DNA of 64,000 bases. Origin: Candidatus Marinarcus aquaticus (GTDB taxonomy: Bacteria > Campylobacterota > Campylobacteria > Campylobacterales > Arcobacteraceae). Positions 23,681-29,665 of the stretch are shown in pieces. The translations under genes were made by a program, and so were the position numbers. Below the pieces are notes generated by a model that did no database searches, was not told where the DNA came from, and was given only the letters and a program-made list of their open reading frames with translations. The stretch's first letter is position 1. The number at the start of each line of letters is the position of its first letter. The stretch spans positions 186,001-250,000 of the forward strand of contig NZ_PDKN01000002.1 in the NCBI RefSeq assembly GCF_004116335.1. Direction: 5' to 3'.

Positions 23681-23956
23681 TTATTTTGCAATTTTATTTG
23701 CAATTGCTTCAATGTCAGCGTCGCTAAGACCTTTGACTTGTGCTTCCATTAAACCTTTAGTTGGTCCACCGTAAGTTCCATCTTGATACCCTTTCATCGC
23801 ACTGATGAAGTCAGCTTTACTCATATCTTTAATAACTTTTGATTTTCCTAATGCAACTTTTTCCCCACTTGCTCCATGACATGTGACACATTTTGCATAT
23901 GGATCTGCAAACGCTGCTAAGGCTAAAAGTGTTGTTAATAATGCTATTTTTTTCAT
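23681..23956 (-). CDS. Periplasmic cytochrome c553-like protein
   Basis: This is a small monoheme cytochrome c of 91 residues with a signal peptide ending at AFA (residues 15-17). The heme-binding motif is C23-V-T-C-H27, and the likely Met axial ligand is in GLMEAQ. It matches the c553 family that carries electrons from the bc1 complex to the cbb3 oxidase or to peroxidases in Campylobacterota. A close paralogue lies 171 bp upstream on the same strand; the shared core KSKxIKDM...MKGYxDG.YGGP.KGLM points to a tandem duplication. Confidence 0.9.
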   Translation of the reverse strand: MKKIALLTTLLALAAFADPYAKCVTCHGASGEKVALGKSKVIKDMSKADFISAMKGYQDGTYGGPTKGLMEAQVKGLSDADIEAIANKIAK

Positions 23957-24091
23957 TGATAATTCCTTTTTGATTGTTTAATCTTATTAATTTTAATATA
24001 TTTATTCTTGAATTTATCTATGAAAATAGGGATTTTATAAAATTTCTTTTAAAAGTATCAATAAGTAATAATTTTTATTTTTTTTTAAGAA

Positions 24092-24121
24092 AATCGGAAG
24101 AGGAGGAGGGAACTTCCGATT
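24092..24121 (-). terminator. Hairpin downstream of the second cytochrome gene
   Basis: AATCGGAAG (24092-24100) pairs with CTTCCGATT (24113-24121) around a purine-rich 12-base loop. It begins 7 bp past the stop codon of the 24128-24406 gene. The minus-strand T tract is broken (TTTTCTT), while the plus strand has a longer one, so it may act in both directions. Confidence 0.6.
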
Positions 24122-24127
24122 TTTTTC

Positions 24128-24406
24128 TTATTTTCCGATGAAATTTGCGATGGCTTCAATGTCTGCATCGCTTAATGGGTTGGCTTGACCTTTCATCAAT
24201 CCTTTCATTGGACCACCGTATGATCCATCTTTATACCCTTTCATGGCTGTTACAATTTCAGCTTTTGTCATATCTTTGATAATTTTAGATTTTCCTAAAG
24301 CTGCTTTTTCACCATTGGCACCGTGACATGCTGCGCACTTTTTGTACACTTCGGTTGCAAACACAGATGAAACCAATAAAGCAAAGATGATAATAGTTTT
24401 TTTCAT
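24128..24406 (-). CDS. Periplasmic cytochrome c553-like protein (paralogue)
   Basis: This is a monoheme cytochrome c of 92 residues with an N-terminal signal (residues 1-17, VFA) and the heme motif C24-A-A-C-H28. The Met ligand is in GLMKGQ, and the C-terminus DADIEAIANFI is shared with the downstream copy. Its own hairpin follows and a separate leader precedes the downstream copy, so the two paralogues may be transcribed independently and could serve different oxidases. Which partner each uses cannot be told from the sequence. Confidence 0.9.
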   Translation of the reverse strand: MKKTIIIFALLVSSVFATEVYKKCAACHGANGEKAALGKSKIIKDMTKAEIVTAMKGYKDGSYGGPMKGLMKGQANPLSDADIEAIANFIGK

Positions 24407-24510: not shown

Positions 24511-26085
24511 TTAGTTGTTGTTAAGAATCTCTTTTTTCAGCTCTTCTTTATTCACTTTGCTTTTATTTGAAGCAATCAATGGAAGTGATTTTTTAAAGAT
24601 GATTTGTGAAGGAATCATATAACTTGCCAAATGTTTTTTCAATTCAAACAGAATTTCGTTTTTAGCCAATTCGCTTCGCGCAGAGTAGACTAAGATAATC
24701 TCCTCTTCAATTTCATCATTTGGAATAGAGAAAACCGCACACTGTTCAATATCTTTGATGTTGTGATAAACAACCGATTCAACTTCTAAAGGAGAGACTC
24801 GAAAACCTCTGGTTTTAATCATGTCATCGGCTCGACTGACAAAGTATAAATATCCCTCTTCATCTTTGTAGACATAATCTCCACTTGCAACGACGATTTC
24901 ATCATTGAGTTGCCCTTCAAGATTGATCGCTTTTTCTAAGATTTTAATGGATTTGAATCGTTGTTGTGATTCAGTGGGTGCATTCCAGAACCCTTTATAG
25001 ATATAACCACCTCTGTGAATAAGTTCACCCACTTCTCTAGGTGCACACTCTTGTCCCTCTTTATTAATAACATAAAGCTCCACATCTGGAATGGCTTTAC
25101 CAATAGAGTTTGGTCGGATTTTGAGCTGACTTGGCTCTAAATACGTACTTCTAAATGCTTCTGTTAATCCATGCATAGAGAAGAACTGCACATTTTTAAA
25201 ATATTTTTCAATATCTGAAATCATTTTAGGGGTTACATTTCCTCCTGAAGAGGTGATGATACGCACATGTTCCAATAAGTTTGCACTTGGAAGTCGGTGC
25301 TCATCTTCATCAAACATCTGAGTGATGTTAATAGGCATTAAAGGTATTACTGTAACTTTATCATTGATTACATGGTTAAAGAAATCACCTGGTAAAACAA
25401 ATCGATGCAGTGCTAAGGTTGCTCGTTTGTATAAACTGCAGAAAATTTGGTTTAACCCATAATCAAGATTGAAAATTAACAGACCTGAAATAACGTCCTC
25501 TTCACTTAAACTCAAGTATTTAGATACCACTCGTGCACTGTCAATGAGGTTTCTGTGAGAAATTACAATCCCTTTTGGAAAACCACTGCTTCCAAAGCTG
25601 TATGTAATAACAGCATTGTCATGCCCTTTGATTTCACATGAATACTCTTTATGGTAGTATTTAAAAATCTCTTCAAAAGAGGCAATCTCTTTAGAAGTCG
25701 TTTCATAAGAGATGATATGACCATCAAATGCAATCTCTTCAATTGATTCAAGTTTCAGTCTGTCGGTGATAATACATTTGATATCACAATCTTTGATGAT
25801 ATACTCAACTTGCTCTGGTTTTAAGAGTTTGGTTAATGGTACTAAAACATAATCGGTTGATAAAATAGCCAAGATACCAATAACTTGCTCAATTCCTTTA
25901 TTTGAATAGACTCCAATACGGCTTCCTGCAGGAAGATTCAGTTCATTGAGATAAAAAGCAATTTGATTGACTTTGGTAAAAAGTTCCGCGTATGTCAAAC
26001 TTTTGTGGTCAAACGTAATGGCTGTTTTAGTTGGGTGAGAGATGTTTGCATCTTCAATCAGTGTTCGAATACAGTTAATAGACAT
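24511..26085 (-). CDS. AMP-forming acyl/aminoacyl ligase of the glutamate mutase operon
   Basis: This ANL-superfamily adenylating enzyme has about 524 residues. Core motifs are intact: the A3 phosphate loop YSFGSSGFPKG, GELIHRGGY.YKGFWN, ASGDYVYKDEEG, the hinge region RADDMIKTRGFRVSPLEVE and a C-terminal lysine in NKSKVNKEEL. It should activate a carboxylate as its adenylate and pass it to CoA or a carrier. No carrier-protein gene is next to it. I chose the ATG at 26085, five bases after AAGGAG; the in-frame GTG at 26091 is too close to it. It is the last gene of the operon, after GlmL, so it may act on 3-methylaspartate or a product of it. That substrate is inference only. Confidence 0.8.
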   Translation of the reverse strand: MSINCIRTLIEDANISHPTKTAITFDHKSLTYAELFTKVNQIAFYLNELNLPAGSRIGVYSNKGIEQVIGILAILSTDYVLVPLTKLLKPEQVEYIIKDCDIKCIITDRLKLESIEEIAFDGHIISYETTSKEIASFEEIFKYYHKEYSCEIKGHDNAVITYSFGSSGFPKGIVISHRNLIDSARVVSKYLSLSEEDVISGLLIFNLDYGLNQIFCSLYKRATLALHRFVLPGDFFNHVINDKVTVIPLMPINITQMFDEDEHRLPSANLLEHVRIITSSGGNVTPKMISDIEKYFKNVQFFSMHGLTEAFRSTYLEPSQLKIRPNSIGKAIPDVELYVINKEGQECAPREVGELIHRGGYIYKGFWNAPTESQQRFKSIKILEKAINLEGQLNDEIVVASGDYVYKDEEGYLYFVSRADDMIKTRGFRVSPLEVESVVYHNIKDIEQCAVFSIPNDEIEEEIILVYSARSELAKNEILFELKKHLASYMIPSQIIFKKSLPLIASNKSKVNKEELKKEILNNN

Positions 26086-26094
26086 GTGCACTCC

Positions 26095-27279
26095 TTAATC
26101 TCGTGTTGCCATCGTCCAAATATCGTAATTTGAATCCATTACGATAGATGGGTTATGGTTTGAGTTTAATATTTTTTTATAAAAAAATGAAACGATGTTT
26201 TCTATATCTTCTTGTTGTAATACTTTGGTGATACCACCAGTGAATACTAAAGAGTTTAGCGCATTTAGTTTTAATGTAACATAAGCTTTGTTGTAATTAG
26301 AGACTTTACAAAGCACTAAGAAAATAGCCAGTTGCATTAAGATTTTAAGTGCTTTTTCACTCTGTTCATCAAAGATATTTTCGGTTACTTTCAAATAGGC
26401 CAAAAGTTCATATACAAACTCATTGTTTTTTGCACTGAAAATCAAAGACTCTTTTGATTTGAAAACACCCAGTTTTTTGAAAACCAATCGGTCATATTCA
26501 TTGTCAATGACCATGTTATCATCAACCAAGTCTTTTGAGTAGTGAATATCGGTCGTTGCTCCACCAATATCAATTAAGATATATGGGTCTGCTACTTTAA
26601 ACTTTGAAACAAGTAGTGGCAGAGTTTGGTTCACAATATACGGTGTTGAAAAGATTTGATTGGCTGTAATATCGTAAAGGTGTTTGATGTCCTCTTTCCC
26701 GACAATATCTGCTTGATAAAGGTTGGTTAAATACTCTTTTAAAGGCTCCTCTTGAATATGAAGCTTCTCATCAATGATATTGGGTAATATCACCAATTTC
26801 TCAATGTTTTCCTTTAAATAAGGAGCATCATCTTTGTTTCCAACATAAACAATGTTTGAGTAGTTGATTTGACTTAAATAGTTTAAAAGTTTCTCATCAA
26901 ATACGCCACTTACACCATCAATTGCTCCAACAACAATCACAACATCGATTAAATCGCTGGGGATAGAGACTTCTTCAATTTGTGAATACAGTACGGTATC
27001 AATGATATTAATCCCAGAGTTATATGCCGTGTTAATTGCATATTTGAGTGAAAATGAGTGGGTGATACCAATAATCAGTGTGCTTAATCCACCGTTTGCA
27101 GATGAACAAATAAAAATATCCTCTTTTTGATATTTTGAGATAATATCTTCACATTTATATTTTAAATCATCAAAAATATTTTTATTGAAATCTCTGAAAT
27201 GTTGCTGTACATCGTTGTTTGCAGCAACTTTAAAGTAGGTACTTCCTACATCGATTAAAAGTCTGTTTTCGTTCATCAT
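26095..27279 (-). CDS. glmL: GlmL/MutL-type ATPase of the glutamate mutase system
   Basis: This protein of 394 residues belongs to the ASKHA ATPase fold. It has the first phosphate loop LLIDVGSTYFKV near the N-terminus and the second in YILIDIGGATTDIHY (about residue 230), followed by TGGITKVL. In glutamate mutase operons MutL/GlmL lies between the subunit genes and probably reactivates or protects the B12 enzyme, as diol dehydratase reactivases do. It overlaps glmE by 4 bp (ATGA) and ends 9 bp before the ligase start, so all four genes form one transcription unit. Confidence 0.85.
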   Translation of the reverse strand: MMNENRLLIDVGSTYFKVAANNDVQQHFRDFNKNIFDDLKYKCEDIISKYQKEDIFICSSANGGLSTLIIGITHSFSLKYAINTAYNSGINIIDTVLYSQIEEVSIPSDLIDVVIVVGAIDGVSGVFDEKLLNYLSQINYSNIVYVGNKDDAPYLKENIEKLVILPNIIDEKLHIQEEPLKEYLTNLYQADIVGKEDIKHLYDITANQIFSTPYIVNQTLPLLVSKFKVADPYILIDIGGATTDIHYSKDLVDDNMVIDNEYDRLVFKKLGVFKSKESLIFSAKNNEFVYELLAYLKVTENIFDEQSEKALKILMQLAIFLVLCKVSNYNKAYVTLKLNALNSLVFTGGITKVLQQEDIENIVSFFYKKILNSNHNPSIVMDSNYDIWTMATRD

Positions 27280-28640
27280 TGCATAATTCCTATGTCGTGG
27301 ATAATGTCATTTACAATAGAGGTGGTATCTTTGGTTAAATCACATTTAGATTTTTCATACTCATAACATCTATCCGAGATAGGTACTTTACCTCGTTTGA
27401 TGATTCGAATGTTTTTATTGGCATCTCGAATAGTGATCATCTCATTGTTATTGATGATATGTGGAGAGAACGGAACATCAATGATTCCATTTTTAATTGA
27501 GTTAAATACTTTTCTCCATAAGGTATCGGCTGGGTCATTAAACACCGCTTCCATGATACTCATAACCTCTTCAGTTAAAATCTCTTCTTCCTCTTCATCC
27601 ACAATGTTTGGAAGACCATTTAAAATTCTAAGCGTATATTGTGTGTTGGCTACGGTTTTAGCATTGGCTTCTTTAGTTGGAATACCACTTGCTTCTTCTC
27701 TGGTTTTCGTAATGATTTTATCTGCACCCACCATTGAAGCAATCACGGTACTCATATTAATTAGTTGCTCTGCAAAATCTTTGTTTTGTGGGAAAGCACC
27801 CATCCATTGATGGTAAACCAAATGCACTTTTGCATCTTCACAGTTGATCTCTTTGGCATAATGCTTTGCAAGTTTTTTAATCACAGCACCCATTACAATG
27901 TCTTGGTTCATTGATCCTGATTGTGAGAATGAAACTGAGAACGATTTTACTCCCTCTTCAAGTGAGAGTAACATCTCTAAAAGTTGTATGACAATTGTGA
28001 TACAAGGAGGTACAAGCGTAGCAGTGAGTGGTCCAAAAGACTCTCTGTTGATGGGTTCATTTAAACCAGAGTATTTTGCACAGACTCGCTCTACATATTT
28101 CCAGTATAAAAAGGCTTTATCCAGTGGAAAGTTCTTTGAATAAGGCAGTAAGTAGGTAATTGGTCCACCTTCGATTTCAAAGATTCCAGAAGCAATGGCT
28201 GTCTCAATTAAAAGCCTTGCATCAGGCGTTCCATGACGTAGTGAAATAGGTTTGTTAAAATGAGTCATCATCTTTCGAGTGGTTCTGTACCCGTGGTTAA
28301 CAAGTGGATAACCATTGAGCATGTCTACTTCATTCTCTTCTGATAGACGTAACATTTTTTTAGAAGTGGCATAGTCATTGAGTCGTGTATTTGAGTCAAT
28401 CGTACAAGGCAGAACATCTACATTTGCGTCCACAAAGAATTCATACAGGGCAAACATTTTATTATATGTTGGGAATCCACCTCGTGGTTGTACCAACATC
28501 TTGTTGCTTTTTGCAAAGTTGTACGAAATAAACAGGTCTTTACTGGCATTCTTAACGAACTCTTCTACTTCTGCAAAATCGAAGTTATCAACATATTCGT
28601 TGTTTAAGATAATTTCTCTCTCTTCTTGTAATAGACTCAT
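27276..28640 (-). CDS. glmE: Glutamate mutase epsilon (large) subunit
   Basis: This is the catalytic barrel subunit of B12-dependent glutamate mutase, which turns L-glutamate into (2S,3S)-3-methylaspartate. Compared with the clostridial enzyme as I recall it, the three arginines that hold the substrate carboxylates are present: R53 in VQPRGG, R86 in DSNTR and R135 in RHGTPDARLL. The catalytic Glu and the two Tyr are also present (E157, Y163, Y167). FGPLTATLVPP and HQWMGAFPQ are further matches. The 454-residue length is about 30 shorter than usual, mainly at the N-terminus. The full active site argues for true glutamate mutase activity. Confidence 0.9.
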   Translation of the reverse strand: MSLLQEEREIILNNEYVDNFDFAEVEEFVKNASKDLFISYNFAKSNKMLVQPRGGFPTYNKMFALYEFFVDANVDVLPCTIDSNTRLNDYATSKKMLRLSEENEVDMLNGYPLVNHGYRTTRKMMTHFNKPISLRHGTPDARLLIETAIASGIFEIEGGPITYLLPYSKNFPLDKAFLYWKYVERVCAKYSGLNEPINRESFGPLTATLVPPCITIVIQLLEMLLSLEEGVKSFSVSFSQSGSMNQDIVMGAVIKKLAKHYAKEINCEDAKVHLVYHQWMGAFPQNKDFAEQLINMSTVIASMVGADKIITKTREEASGIPTKEANAKTVANTQYTLRILNGLPNIVDEEEEEILTEEVMSIMEAVFNDPADTLWRKVFNSIKNGIIDVPFSPHIINNNEMITIRDANKNIRIIKRGKVPISDRCYEYEKSKCDLTKDTTSIVNDIIHDIGIMQ

Positions 28641-29047
28641 TTTCGCTCACTCATAAATTTTTCTAACTCATCCAGACCAGTATTTAAATCCACTTGGTGA
28701 AATACCAAATCAAATCCATAATTTTTAAATCGTGGAACAATGTCTTCAGCACTTCCCGTACCAACGACTAAATTCCCACCAATCATAAATACAACGTCAT
28801 CTAAGAGTTTTCCATATTTGTTTTTTAAAAAGTTGACTTCTCGACACCAACCCTCTGCTTCACCATTGAGCGAAGAGATTAAAAGAATATCCGCATCTGT
28901 TTCAATCACTGCATCAATAAACTCTTCTAAATAGGTATTTACACCTAAGTTAAACACTTCAAAACCTCTGGCTTTGAGTGAGAGTTCAATCAGTCTGTTT
29001 GCAACGACGTGAATATCGTTTCCTACTACACCTGTTACTACTTTCAT
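28637..29047 (-). CDS. glmS: Glutamate mutase sigma (cobalamin-binding) subunit
   Basis: This is the small B12-binding subunit of glutamate mutase (136 residues). The cobalamin motif DxHxxG reads D11-I-H13-V-V-A16: the base-off His and its Asp are present, but the glycine is alanine. Later cobalamin-contact segments are SSLNGEAE and GGNLVVGT, which match SSLYGQGE and GGNIVVG of the clostridial protein. It is the first gene of the operon and overlaps glmE by 4 bp. It starts 138 bp from the divergent RraA-like gene. Free-standing small cobalamin domains also occur in other mutases, but the large-subunit neighbour fixes the assignment. Confidence 0.87.
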   Translation of the reverse strand: MKVVTGVVGNDIHVVANRLIELSLKARGFEVFNLGVNTYLEEFIDAVIETDADILLISSLNGEAEGWCREVNFLKNKYGKLLDDVVFMIGGNLVVGTGSAEDIVPRFKNYGFDLVFHQVDLNTGLDELEKFMSERK

Positions 29048-29088
29048 ACCATTACCTAATTATATAAATTATTCTCATAAAGGGCGGT

Positions 29089-29094
29089 AGTATA
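29089..29094 (-). promoter_or_regulatory. Putative -10 element of the glutamate mutase operon
   Basis: On the minus strand TATACT lies about 40 bp upstream of the glmS ATG. No -35 element is evident. The 138-bp divergent region must also hold the promoter of the RraA-like gene. Confidence 0.35.
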
Positions 29095-29185
29095 GCTAAT
29101 ATTTGGTAAATCTAAGTTTATGTAAAATTAATAGCGAACATGCAATAATCTCTTTTGATTAACACAGAACAAATAGGATGATACA

Positions 29186-29665
29186 ATGAGTTTCAGTACA
29201 GCTGATTTATGCGATGAATTTTTTGATAAAGTACGTGTTTTAAACCCTGAGTTTAAACCATATGGTGGAAAAAGAAAAGTTGAAGGTACAATTGTGACCA
29301 TGCGATTGGACAAAAACAATTATGATTTGGCTTCTATGCTTAAAAATGAAGCAGGAGAGAACCGAATTGTTGTTGTGGATGTGGCACAAGAATATTACGC
29401 AGTTGTGGGTGATAACCTTATGAAGTTTGCACAAGACAATAATTGGCAAGCCATTTTAGTCAATGGCTATGTAAGAGACACGGATGAAACACAAAAATTT
29501 GATGTGGGTCTGTTTGCTATTGGAACGTGCCCGCGAAAATATATTCCACAAACATCAGGTCAAAGAGGCGTAGAGTTAAGCTTTGAAGGTGTTGTTTTTA
29601 AAGACGGTGATTATTTGTATGCGGATAATGATGGAATTATCATCACTGAAACGAAAATAGATTAA
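29186..29665 (+). CDS. RraA-fold protein with aldolase/decarboxylase motif
   Basis: This protein of 159 residues aligns along its length with E. coli RraA (STADLCDEF start, YGG, VVVD, VNG, ADNDGIII near the end). In the region where RraA has VRQVDDL it reads D76-x20-R97-D98-x2-E101. That is the metal and pyruvate binding motif of class II HMG/CHA aldolases and oxaloacetate decarboxylases of this fold. As far as I know Campylobacterota use RNase J and RNase Y rather than RNase E, so an RNase E inhibitor role would be odd. A small pyruvate-releasing aldolase or oxaloacetate decarboxylase is more likely. The usual product label, RraA, may mislead. Confidence 0.8.
   Translation: MSFSTADLCDEFFDKVRVLNPEFKPYGGKRKVEGTIVTMRLDKNNYDLASMLKNEAGENRIVVVDVAQEYYAVVGDNLMKFAQDNNWQAILVNGYVRDTDETQKFDVGLFAIGTCPRKYIPQTSGQRGVELSFEGVVFKDGDYLYADNDGIIITETKID

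Follow-up and report, generated by a model that had tools for sequence, protein, structure and literature searches.

What becomes of 3-methylaspartate in a bacterium that encodes a complete B12-dependent glutamate mutase beside a ligase-fold protein, with no methylaspartase gene in sight? We addressed this question at a locus of Candidatus Marinarcus aquaticus (Campylobacterota; Arcobacteraceae) lying in a 64,000-nt stretch of DNA, positions 186,001 to 250,000 of contig NZ_PDKN01000002.1 (assembly GCF_004116335.1), which we call the window. An operon there encodes the glutamate mutase proteins GlmS, GlmE and GlmL and the ligase-fold protein LIG, and a divergent gene encodes RraA2, a member of the RraA family. 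A sequence-only reading had described the operon as a complete mutase coupled to a ligase, free of methylaspartase and possibly part of an undescribed pathway. Our analysis confirmed this observation and found it to be larger than described, because the RraA-family partner, an AspC-type aminotransferase of gammaproteobacterial loci and a wide horizontal spread had been missed. Its sequences mark the locus as a conserved and mobile module, in which a glutamate mutase of a distinct subfamily is joined by a ligase-fold protein with altered motifs and by an RraA-family protein dedicated to it.

GlmE was detected in 31 of 298 Campylobacterota genomes, and LIG in exactly the same 31, the other 267 lacking it. 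The order GlmS-GlmE-GlmL-LIG, which the sequence-only reading had set out for the window, held in all 31 GlmE-positive genomes (one with an insertion and one cut by a contig end), which excludes chance assembly of the gene set. Apparent gaps in this order turned out to be an artefact of open reading frame (ORF) calling (L044), the insertion (L056) and the contig end (L064). At L056 (genome G234, ~10.7–15.1 kb) several genes were inserted between GlmE and GlmL, with GlmL and LIG kept downstream. A species-level scan of 84,980 genomes returned 227 GlmE relatives, the best 80 of which were analysed. About 50 of these 80 came from marine Gammaproteobacteria, including Colwellia, Thalassotalea, Amphritea, Neptuniibacter, Reinekea, Vibrio, Granulosicoccus, Seongchinamella and others. 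LIG was called at 76 of the 80 loci, GlmL at 77 and RraA at 65, contig ends clipping some loci, and the neighbours of the cassette varied among gammaproteobacterial loci. Between Arcobacteraceae/Sulfurimonas and Gammaproteobacteria the median identity was 85% for GlmE and 73% for LIG, compared with 74% and 63%, respectively, between Arcobacteraceae/Sulfurimonas and the Sulfurospirillaceae-type Campylobacterota. Pairwise identities were correlated at 0.94 for GlmE and LIG, 0.81 for GlmE and RraA2, and 0.82 for LIG and RraA2. The identity pattern, together with the GlmE-LIG correlation, indicates that the genes crossed from phylum to phylum together. With the divergent RraA-family gene, the operon appears to make up a single horizontally transferred metabolic module. 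A search for the cassette on plasmids turned up the exosortase ligase and GlmE of other types but not the cassette itself.

The RraA-family gene followed the mutase closely. Strong RraA matches were present in 31 of 31 GlmE-positive and in 3 of 267 GlmE-negative Campylobacterota (hypergeometric p ~5e-39 by genome and ~4e-12 by genus). RraA was retained in genomes where it is unlinked to the operon (G131, G234, G235 and G291), and in one genome devoid of GlmE and LIG (G207) an RraA copy occupied the site that holds the operon in related genomes. RraA2 itself scored 136.8 bits against TIGR01935 and 149.5 bits against NF006875, a curated ribonuclease E regulator model with a cut-off of 136. Canonical RraA (168–230 bits) was found in 17 of 20 gammaproteobacterial cassette genomes, and cassette RraA (117–131 bits) in 19 of the 20, the exception being Colwellia maritima, so that the cassette RraA appears as a subfamily distinct from the housekeeping one. 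In C. maritima the cassette-type gene (G299 contig C3:347586-348034) consists of two overlapping pieces with a stop codon and is apparently broken, and the GlmSEL-LIG operon remains (L074).

RraA2 of the window carries D76-x20-R97-D98, and the motif [DE]76-x20-R97-D98 was present in all 89 cassette RraA copies, with Asp in 22, the window's copy included, and Glu in 67; in the alignment, E. coli RraA has R-Q where the cassette proteins have R-D. The D-X20-R-D form of the metal-binding motif reportedly goes back to work by Mazurkewich in 2014. RraA2 thus shares the fold family and the [DE]-x20-R-D motif with the RraA/4-hydroxy-4-methyl-2-oxoglutarate (HMG) aldolase family PF03737, from which it differs as a separate cassette-linked subfamily standing beside canonical RraA. 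Metal-binding motifs exist in the RraA family, and the proteins that carry them are regarded as pyruvate aldolases of class II that have both C-C lyase and oxaloacetate decarboxylase activity (PMC5065237). Second RraA copies in Arcobacteraceae were seen at other sites, in some genomes (L157, L158, L161 and L162; G241, G207, G256 and G273) next to a carbonic-anhydrase-like gene and a gene for a biotin-carboxylase-like subunit; these neighbours suggest, not decisively, a role in oxaloacetate/pyruvate or C3/C4 keto-acid metabolism.

The mutase itself looks competent. GlmS scored 157.7 bits against NF002612 (cut-off 110) and keeps the D-x-H of the cobalamin motif, with the subsequent Gly replaced by Ala (DIHVVA); D-x-H-x-x-A in place of D-x-H-x-x-G was found in all 104 GlmS orthologues. 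GlmE exceeded the cut-off of Pfam PF06368 (383.5 bits) and fell under that of TIGR01503 (369.2 bits, cut-off 390.1), and is ~34–38% identical to the plasmid-borne GlmE of Escherichia, Salmonella, Rhizobium and Peptoclostridium; cassette GlmE thus appears to form a divergent subfamily. It was alignable with the solved Clostridium cochlearium enzyme, and all 15 active-site positions checked were identical in all 110 cassette GlmE proteins, among them the equivalents of Arg66, Arg100, Arg149, Glu171, Tyr177, Tyr181, Lys326 and Glu330, so that the substrate arginines and the catalytic Glu and Tyr noted by the sequence-only reading are general to the cassette. We take the roles of these residues, including the claw formed by Arg66, Arg100 and Arg149, to be those in the solved glutamate mutase structures. 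The nucleotide-binding motifs of GlmL were kept as well, D-x-GSTY in 78 of 78 homologues and [LIV]D[IV]GGATTD in 77 of 78. The conserved GlmE active site supports conversion of glutamate to 3-methylaspartate as the probable first step. Compared with the B12 glutamate mutase of C. cochlearium (PDB 1CB7/6H9E), the cassette shares the subunit set and every tested GlmE active-site residue, whereas its GlmE is ~36% identical to other GlmE types, its GlmL is short, its GlmS has the Gly to Ala change, and LIG follows in place of methylaspartase. The papers covered by our literature search on glutamate mutase in Sulfurospirillum or Campylobacterota contained nothing relevant. At a Roseibium aggregatum plasmid locus (L279), GlmE is encoded next to an amino acid adenylation protein, an aromatic amino acid lyase and a racemase for amino acids, so that methylaspartate may there have a genuine use in biosynthesis.

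The most unusual component is LIG, whose closest characterised relatives are adenylation domains of nonribosomal peptide synthetases (NRPS) and whose closest family is the exosortase A ligase TIGR03098 (438.7 bits, short of the required 592.35). In the order of Neptuniibacter, LIG orthologues showed 72–76% identity and the next tier mostly ≤37%, a clear gap, and the motifs of 104 orthologues were compared with those of 17 next-tier relatives. The P-loop of the window's LIG is YSFGSSGFPKG, and the orthologues have S-F-G-[LIMVS]-[TS]-G against the A3 consensus [ST][SG]G[ST][ST]GxPK. The P-loop Ser was replaced by Phe in 104 of 104 orthologues and the next Thr/Ser by a hydrophobic residue (Leu, Ile, Met or Val) in 94 of 104, whereas TSGSTG was retained in 17 of 17 nearest relatives. 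The A5 Tyr was changed to His in all 104 proteins, and the A10 lysine position held Lys in 48, Gln in 26, Arg in 14 and other residues elsewhere, the alignment there being ambiguous by 1–2 residues. Asp210 (numbered from the GTG at 26091; D235 of GrsA), which binds the amino group, was kept in all 104 orthologues, and A5 Glu, A7 Asp and A8 Arg/Lys in 103–104 of them. An AlphaFold model (predicted local distance difference test score 80.5) had the ANL fold by Foldseek (E from 3e-39, template modelling score ~0.65–0.8). LIG is apparently under strong selection, but these substitutions suggest that it has probably lost ordinary ATP-dependent adenylation, a probability rather than a proof because the A10 region is hard to align.

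The gene context of LIG also differs from that of its relatives. A LysA-like decarboxylase adjoins the ligase in nearly all 17 next-tier loci, and 12 of the 17 contain an acyl carrier protein (13 profile matches); among the ORFs of all GlmE loci there were no matches to an acyl carrier profile, and the conserved genes of the cassette loci, which had no profile screen for decarboxylases, included none. LIG therefore shares with the TIGR03098 system (TIGR03098 ligase, TIGR03099 decarboxylase and acyl carrier) ~34–37% identity and the pocket motif FDYGxxQ, and departs from it in its score under the model cut-off, its changed catalytic motifs, and a glutamate mutase linkage that replaces the decarboxylase and carrier. 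The source genome (2.53 Mb, 99.98% complete) yielded four acyl carrier matches, one housekeeping-like and three extra. A dedicated carrier for LIG was rejected among them: all four lie in housekeeping-like, aryl-polyene-like or FkbH-type loci, and none is linked to the operon. One such locus (contig C3, 16000-48000; L065 and L066) is an aryl-polyene/dialkylresorcinol-like cluster that encodes ketosynthases, a flavoprotein and two acyl carrier proteins and includes an aromatic ammonia-lyase-like gene, and another (contig C10, 4000-23500; L067) encodes an FkbH-like protein with its own carrier, surrounded by DegT-type aminotransferase-like and surface-polysaccharide-like genes. Two weak matches to the TIGR03099-type decarboxylase (best 235 bits, cut-off 478) were read as LysA and SpeA.

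In the window the five genes lie next to one another. The 4-bp overlaps at the GlmS/GlmE and GlmE/GlmL junctions were seen as the sequence-only reading had given them, and so was the ligase gene within 9 bp of GlmL, a gap that applies if LIG begins at the ATG at 26085, the start in most orthologues, and not at the alternative GTG at 26091. The divergent arrangement of RraA and the operon was kept in most loci. One promoter-like site per strand was found in the intergenic region (2 found, 2.3 expected), which is chance level, and no Rfam family matched between 23500 and 31000. A tandem pair of small cytochrome c genes (23681-24406), conserved in position in Arcobacteraceae, lies immediately downstream of the operon.

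Features of the glutamate mutase locus, in window coordinates.
Feature	Position	Strand	Product	Basis
GlmS	28637-29047	-	B12-binding subunit of glutamate mutase, 136 aa	NF002612, PDB matches to GlmS
GlmE	27276-28640	-	catalytic subunit of glutamate mutase, 454 aa	PF06368
GlmL	26095-27279	-	MutL-type ATP-dependent reactivase, 394 aa (short)	PF13941
LIG	24511-26085 (ATG)	-	ANL-fold (AMP-binding) protein, 524 aa	PF00501/PF13193
RraA2	29186-29665	+	RraA/HMG-aldolase-family protein, 159 aa	TIGR01935
Intergenic region GlmS/RraA2	29048-29185	no strand	138 bp between the divergent operon and RraA2	

A further enzyme came from the gammaproteobacterial loci, where an AspC-type aminotransferase lay beside the cassette or within ~10 kb of it in 17 of 20 genomes. 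Its best solved relatives were E. coli AspC, and a second AspC-like gene was present in most of the genomes with a cassette-linked AspC. Combining these observations, we tentatively prefer a pathway in which the module turns glutamate, via 3-methylaspartate and 3-methyloxaloacetate, into 2-oxobutyrate, with LIG acting as a non-adenylating protein. GlmS and GlmE, kept active by GlmL, would convert L-glutamate to (2S,3S)-3-methylaspartate, as the complete conservation of the active site suggests. An aspartate aminotransferase, module-linked in Gammaproteobacteria, would most likely convert this to 3-methyloxaloacetate, and RraA2 may act as a metal-dependent beta-keto-acid decarboxylase that releases 2-oxobutyrate and CO2. 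The 2-oxobutyrate would then feed isoleucine or propionyl metabolism. LIG, in which the amino-acid pocket, the Asp for the AMP ribose and the hinge motif are preserved but normal adenylation is probably lost, may be kept for another step, such as the handling of a preformed adenylate or thioester, or for amino-acid sensing; this is the least certain part of the proposal.

Such a route has a precedent. Where PMC7476758 mentions a 'glutamate mutase pathway' to 2-oxobutyrate, it attributes the pathway to Abramsky and colleagues (1962) and cites it as real; the literature searched assigned no genes to it. The mutase, aminotransferase and keto-acid decarboxylase candidates of the module fit the steps expected from that mention, whereas LIG has no place among them and cassette genomes encode IlvA. 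Several points count against our proposal. Threonine deaminase IlvA was present in 31 of 31 cassette-bearing Campylobacterota, so that a second source of 2-oxobutyrate is not required and the route would be supplementary at most; rescue of isoleucine auxotrophy as its sole purpose was ruled out on the same ground. The Campylobacterota loci have no linked aminotransferase, AspC elsewhere in these genomes not having been searched for. As a rule cassette RraA lacks the family's other metal motif, R-D-x2-E/D, and has Gln at position 101 in 62 of 89 copies. Finally, the proposed pathway gives LIG no job, though LIG is never missing.

In the main rival explanation LIG adenylates 3-methylaspartate and transfers it to coenzyme A (CoA) or to a carrier encoded elsewhere, en route to a peptide, a polyketide, a lipid or a surface sugar, chemistry of the kind performed by VinN, VinL and VinO of macrolactam clusters (PMC5785472). 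The relationship of LIG to NRPS adenylation domains and TIGR03098, and the three acyl carrier genes beyond the housekeeping-like one, speak for this possibility, and with the amino-binding pocket intact and its Asp kept in every orthologue it retains an appreciable minority share of the probability. The shared features with the vicenistatin-type starter pathway (VinH/VinI-VinN-VinL-VinO) are the glutamate mutase and an adenylation-fold protein with the amino-binding Asp. However, the cassette has no linked carrier and no pyridoxal phosphate-dependent decarboxylase was seen among its conserved genes, LIG deviates in the P-loop, the A5 Tyr and the A10 region, and the three extra carriers belong to the aryl-polyene-like and FkbH-type loci. 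The suggestion of the sequence-only reading, activation of methylaspartate or a derivative by the ligase in the manner of some peptide antibiotic (VinN-type) pathways, therefore did not hold up well, and we consider this explanation unlikely. An improbable alternative takes RraA2 for a true aldolase of the 4-hydroxy-4-methyl-2-oxoglutarate type, with the aminotransferase linking the resulting keto acid to a C5 or C6 glutamate analogue rearranged by GlmSE. It is compatible with the placement of RraA2, metal motif included, in the HMG-aldolase fold family (PMC5065237) and with an aminotransferase that belongs to the gammaproteobacterial version, but across 110 GlmE proteins every residue that binds unsubstituted glutamate in the solved enzyme is the same, so that a different substrate is hard to accommodate.

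That RraA merely adjoins the operon and regulates RNA decay without any functional tie to it would agree with the name given to RraA2 by NF006875; we regard it as very improbable in view of the near-perfect co-occurrence even without linkage and of a divergent second copy in Gammaproteobacteria that already hold canonical RraA. Slimmer still are the prospects that methylaspartate is degraded in the ordinary way by a methylaspartase and a mesaconase whose genes lie elsewhere. Methylaspartase was absent from the source genome (no matches to PF07476), in line with the sequence-only reading, and PF05034 had no match in 48 of 50 other cassette genomes, the remaining two giving one clear match and one weak one; for the known methylaspartase family this explanation is already refuted. 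Any absence of mesaconase would be hard to prove because class I fumarases can be promiscuous (PMC4682846). Classic clusters do exist on plasmids of Gemmobacter and Rhizobium, in the order glmS-glmE-methylaspartase-CoA-transferase-CoA ester lyase-hydratase and with GlmE ~34–36% identical to that of the cassette, but those shown carry neither LIG nor RraA. The cassette shares the first step with the methylaspartate pathway of Clostridia, E. coli O157:H7 and the alphaproteobacterial clusters, and differs in that methylaspartase is absent and its cluster contains neither CoA-transferase nor lyase nor mesaconase genes.

For the fate of 3-methylaspartate, then, the gene set of the module fits no described pathway, and a B12 enzyme known mainly from fermentation and antibiotic synthesis is found here in two phyla as part of a stable module of five or six genes. 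It is conceivable, if doubtful, that the module, passed on horizontally among marine bacteria, holds the missing genes of a route that leads from glutamate to 2-oxobutyrate, or to a related keto acid, independently of threonine, with LIG repurposed for a reaction or control step new to its superfamily. If 2-oxobutyrate is the product, these would be the genes for the route reported in 1962. If it is not, the module would point to a new fate of 3-methylaspartate, to a cobalamin requirement of marine and vent bacteria, and to a conserved ANL-fold protein seemingly devoid of normal ATP activation.

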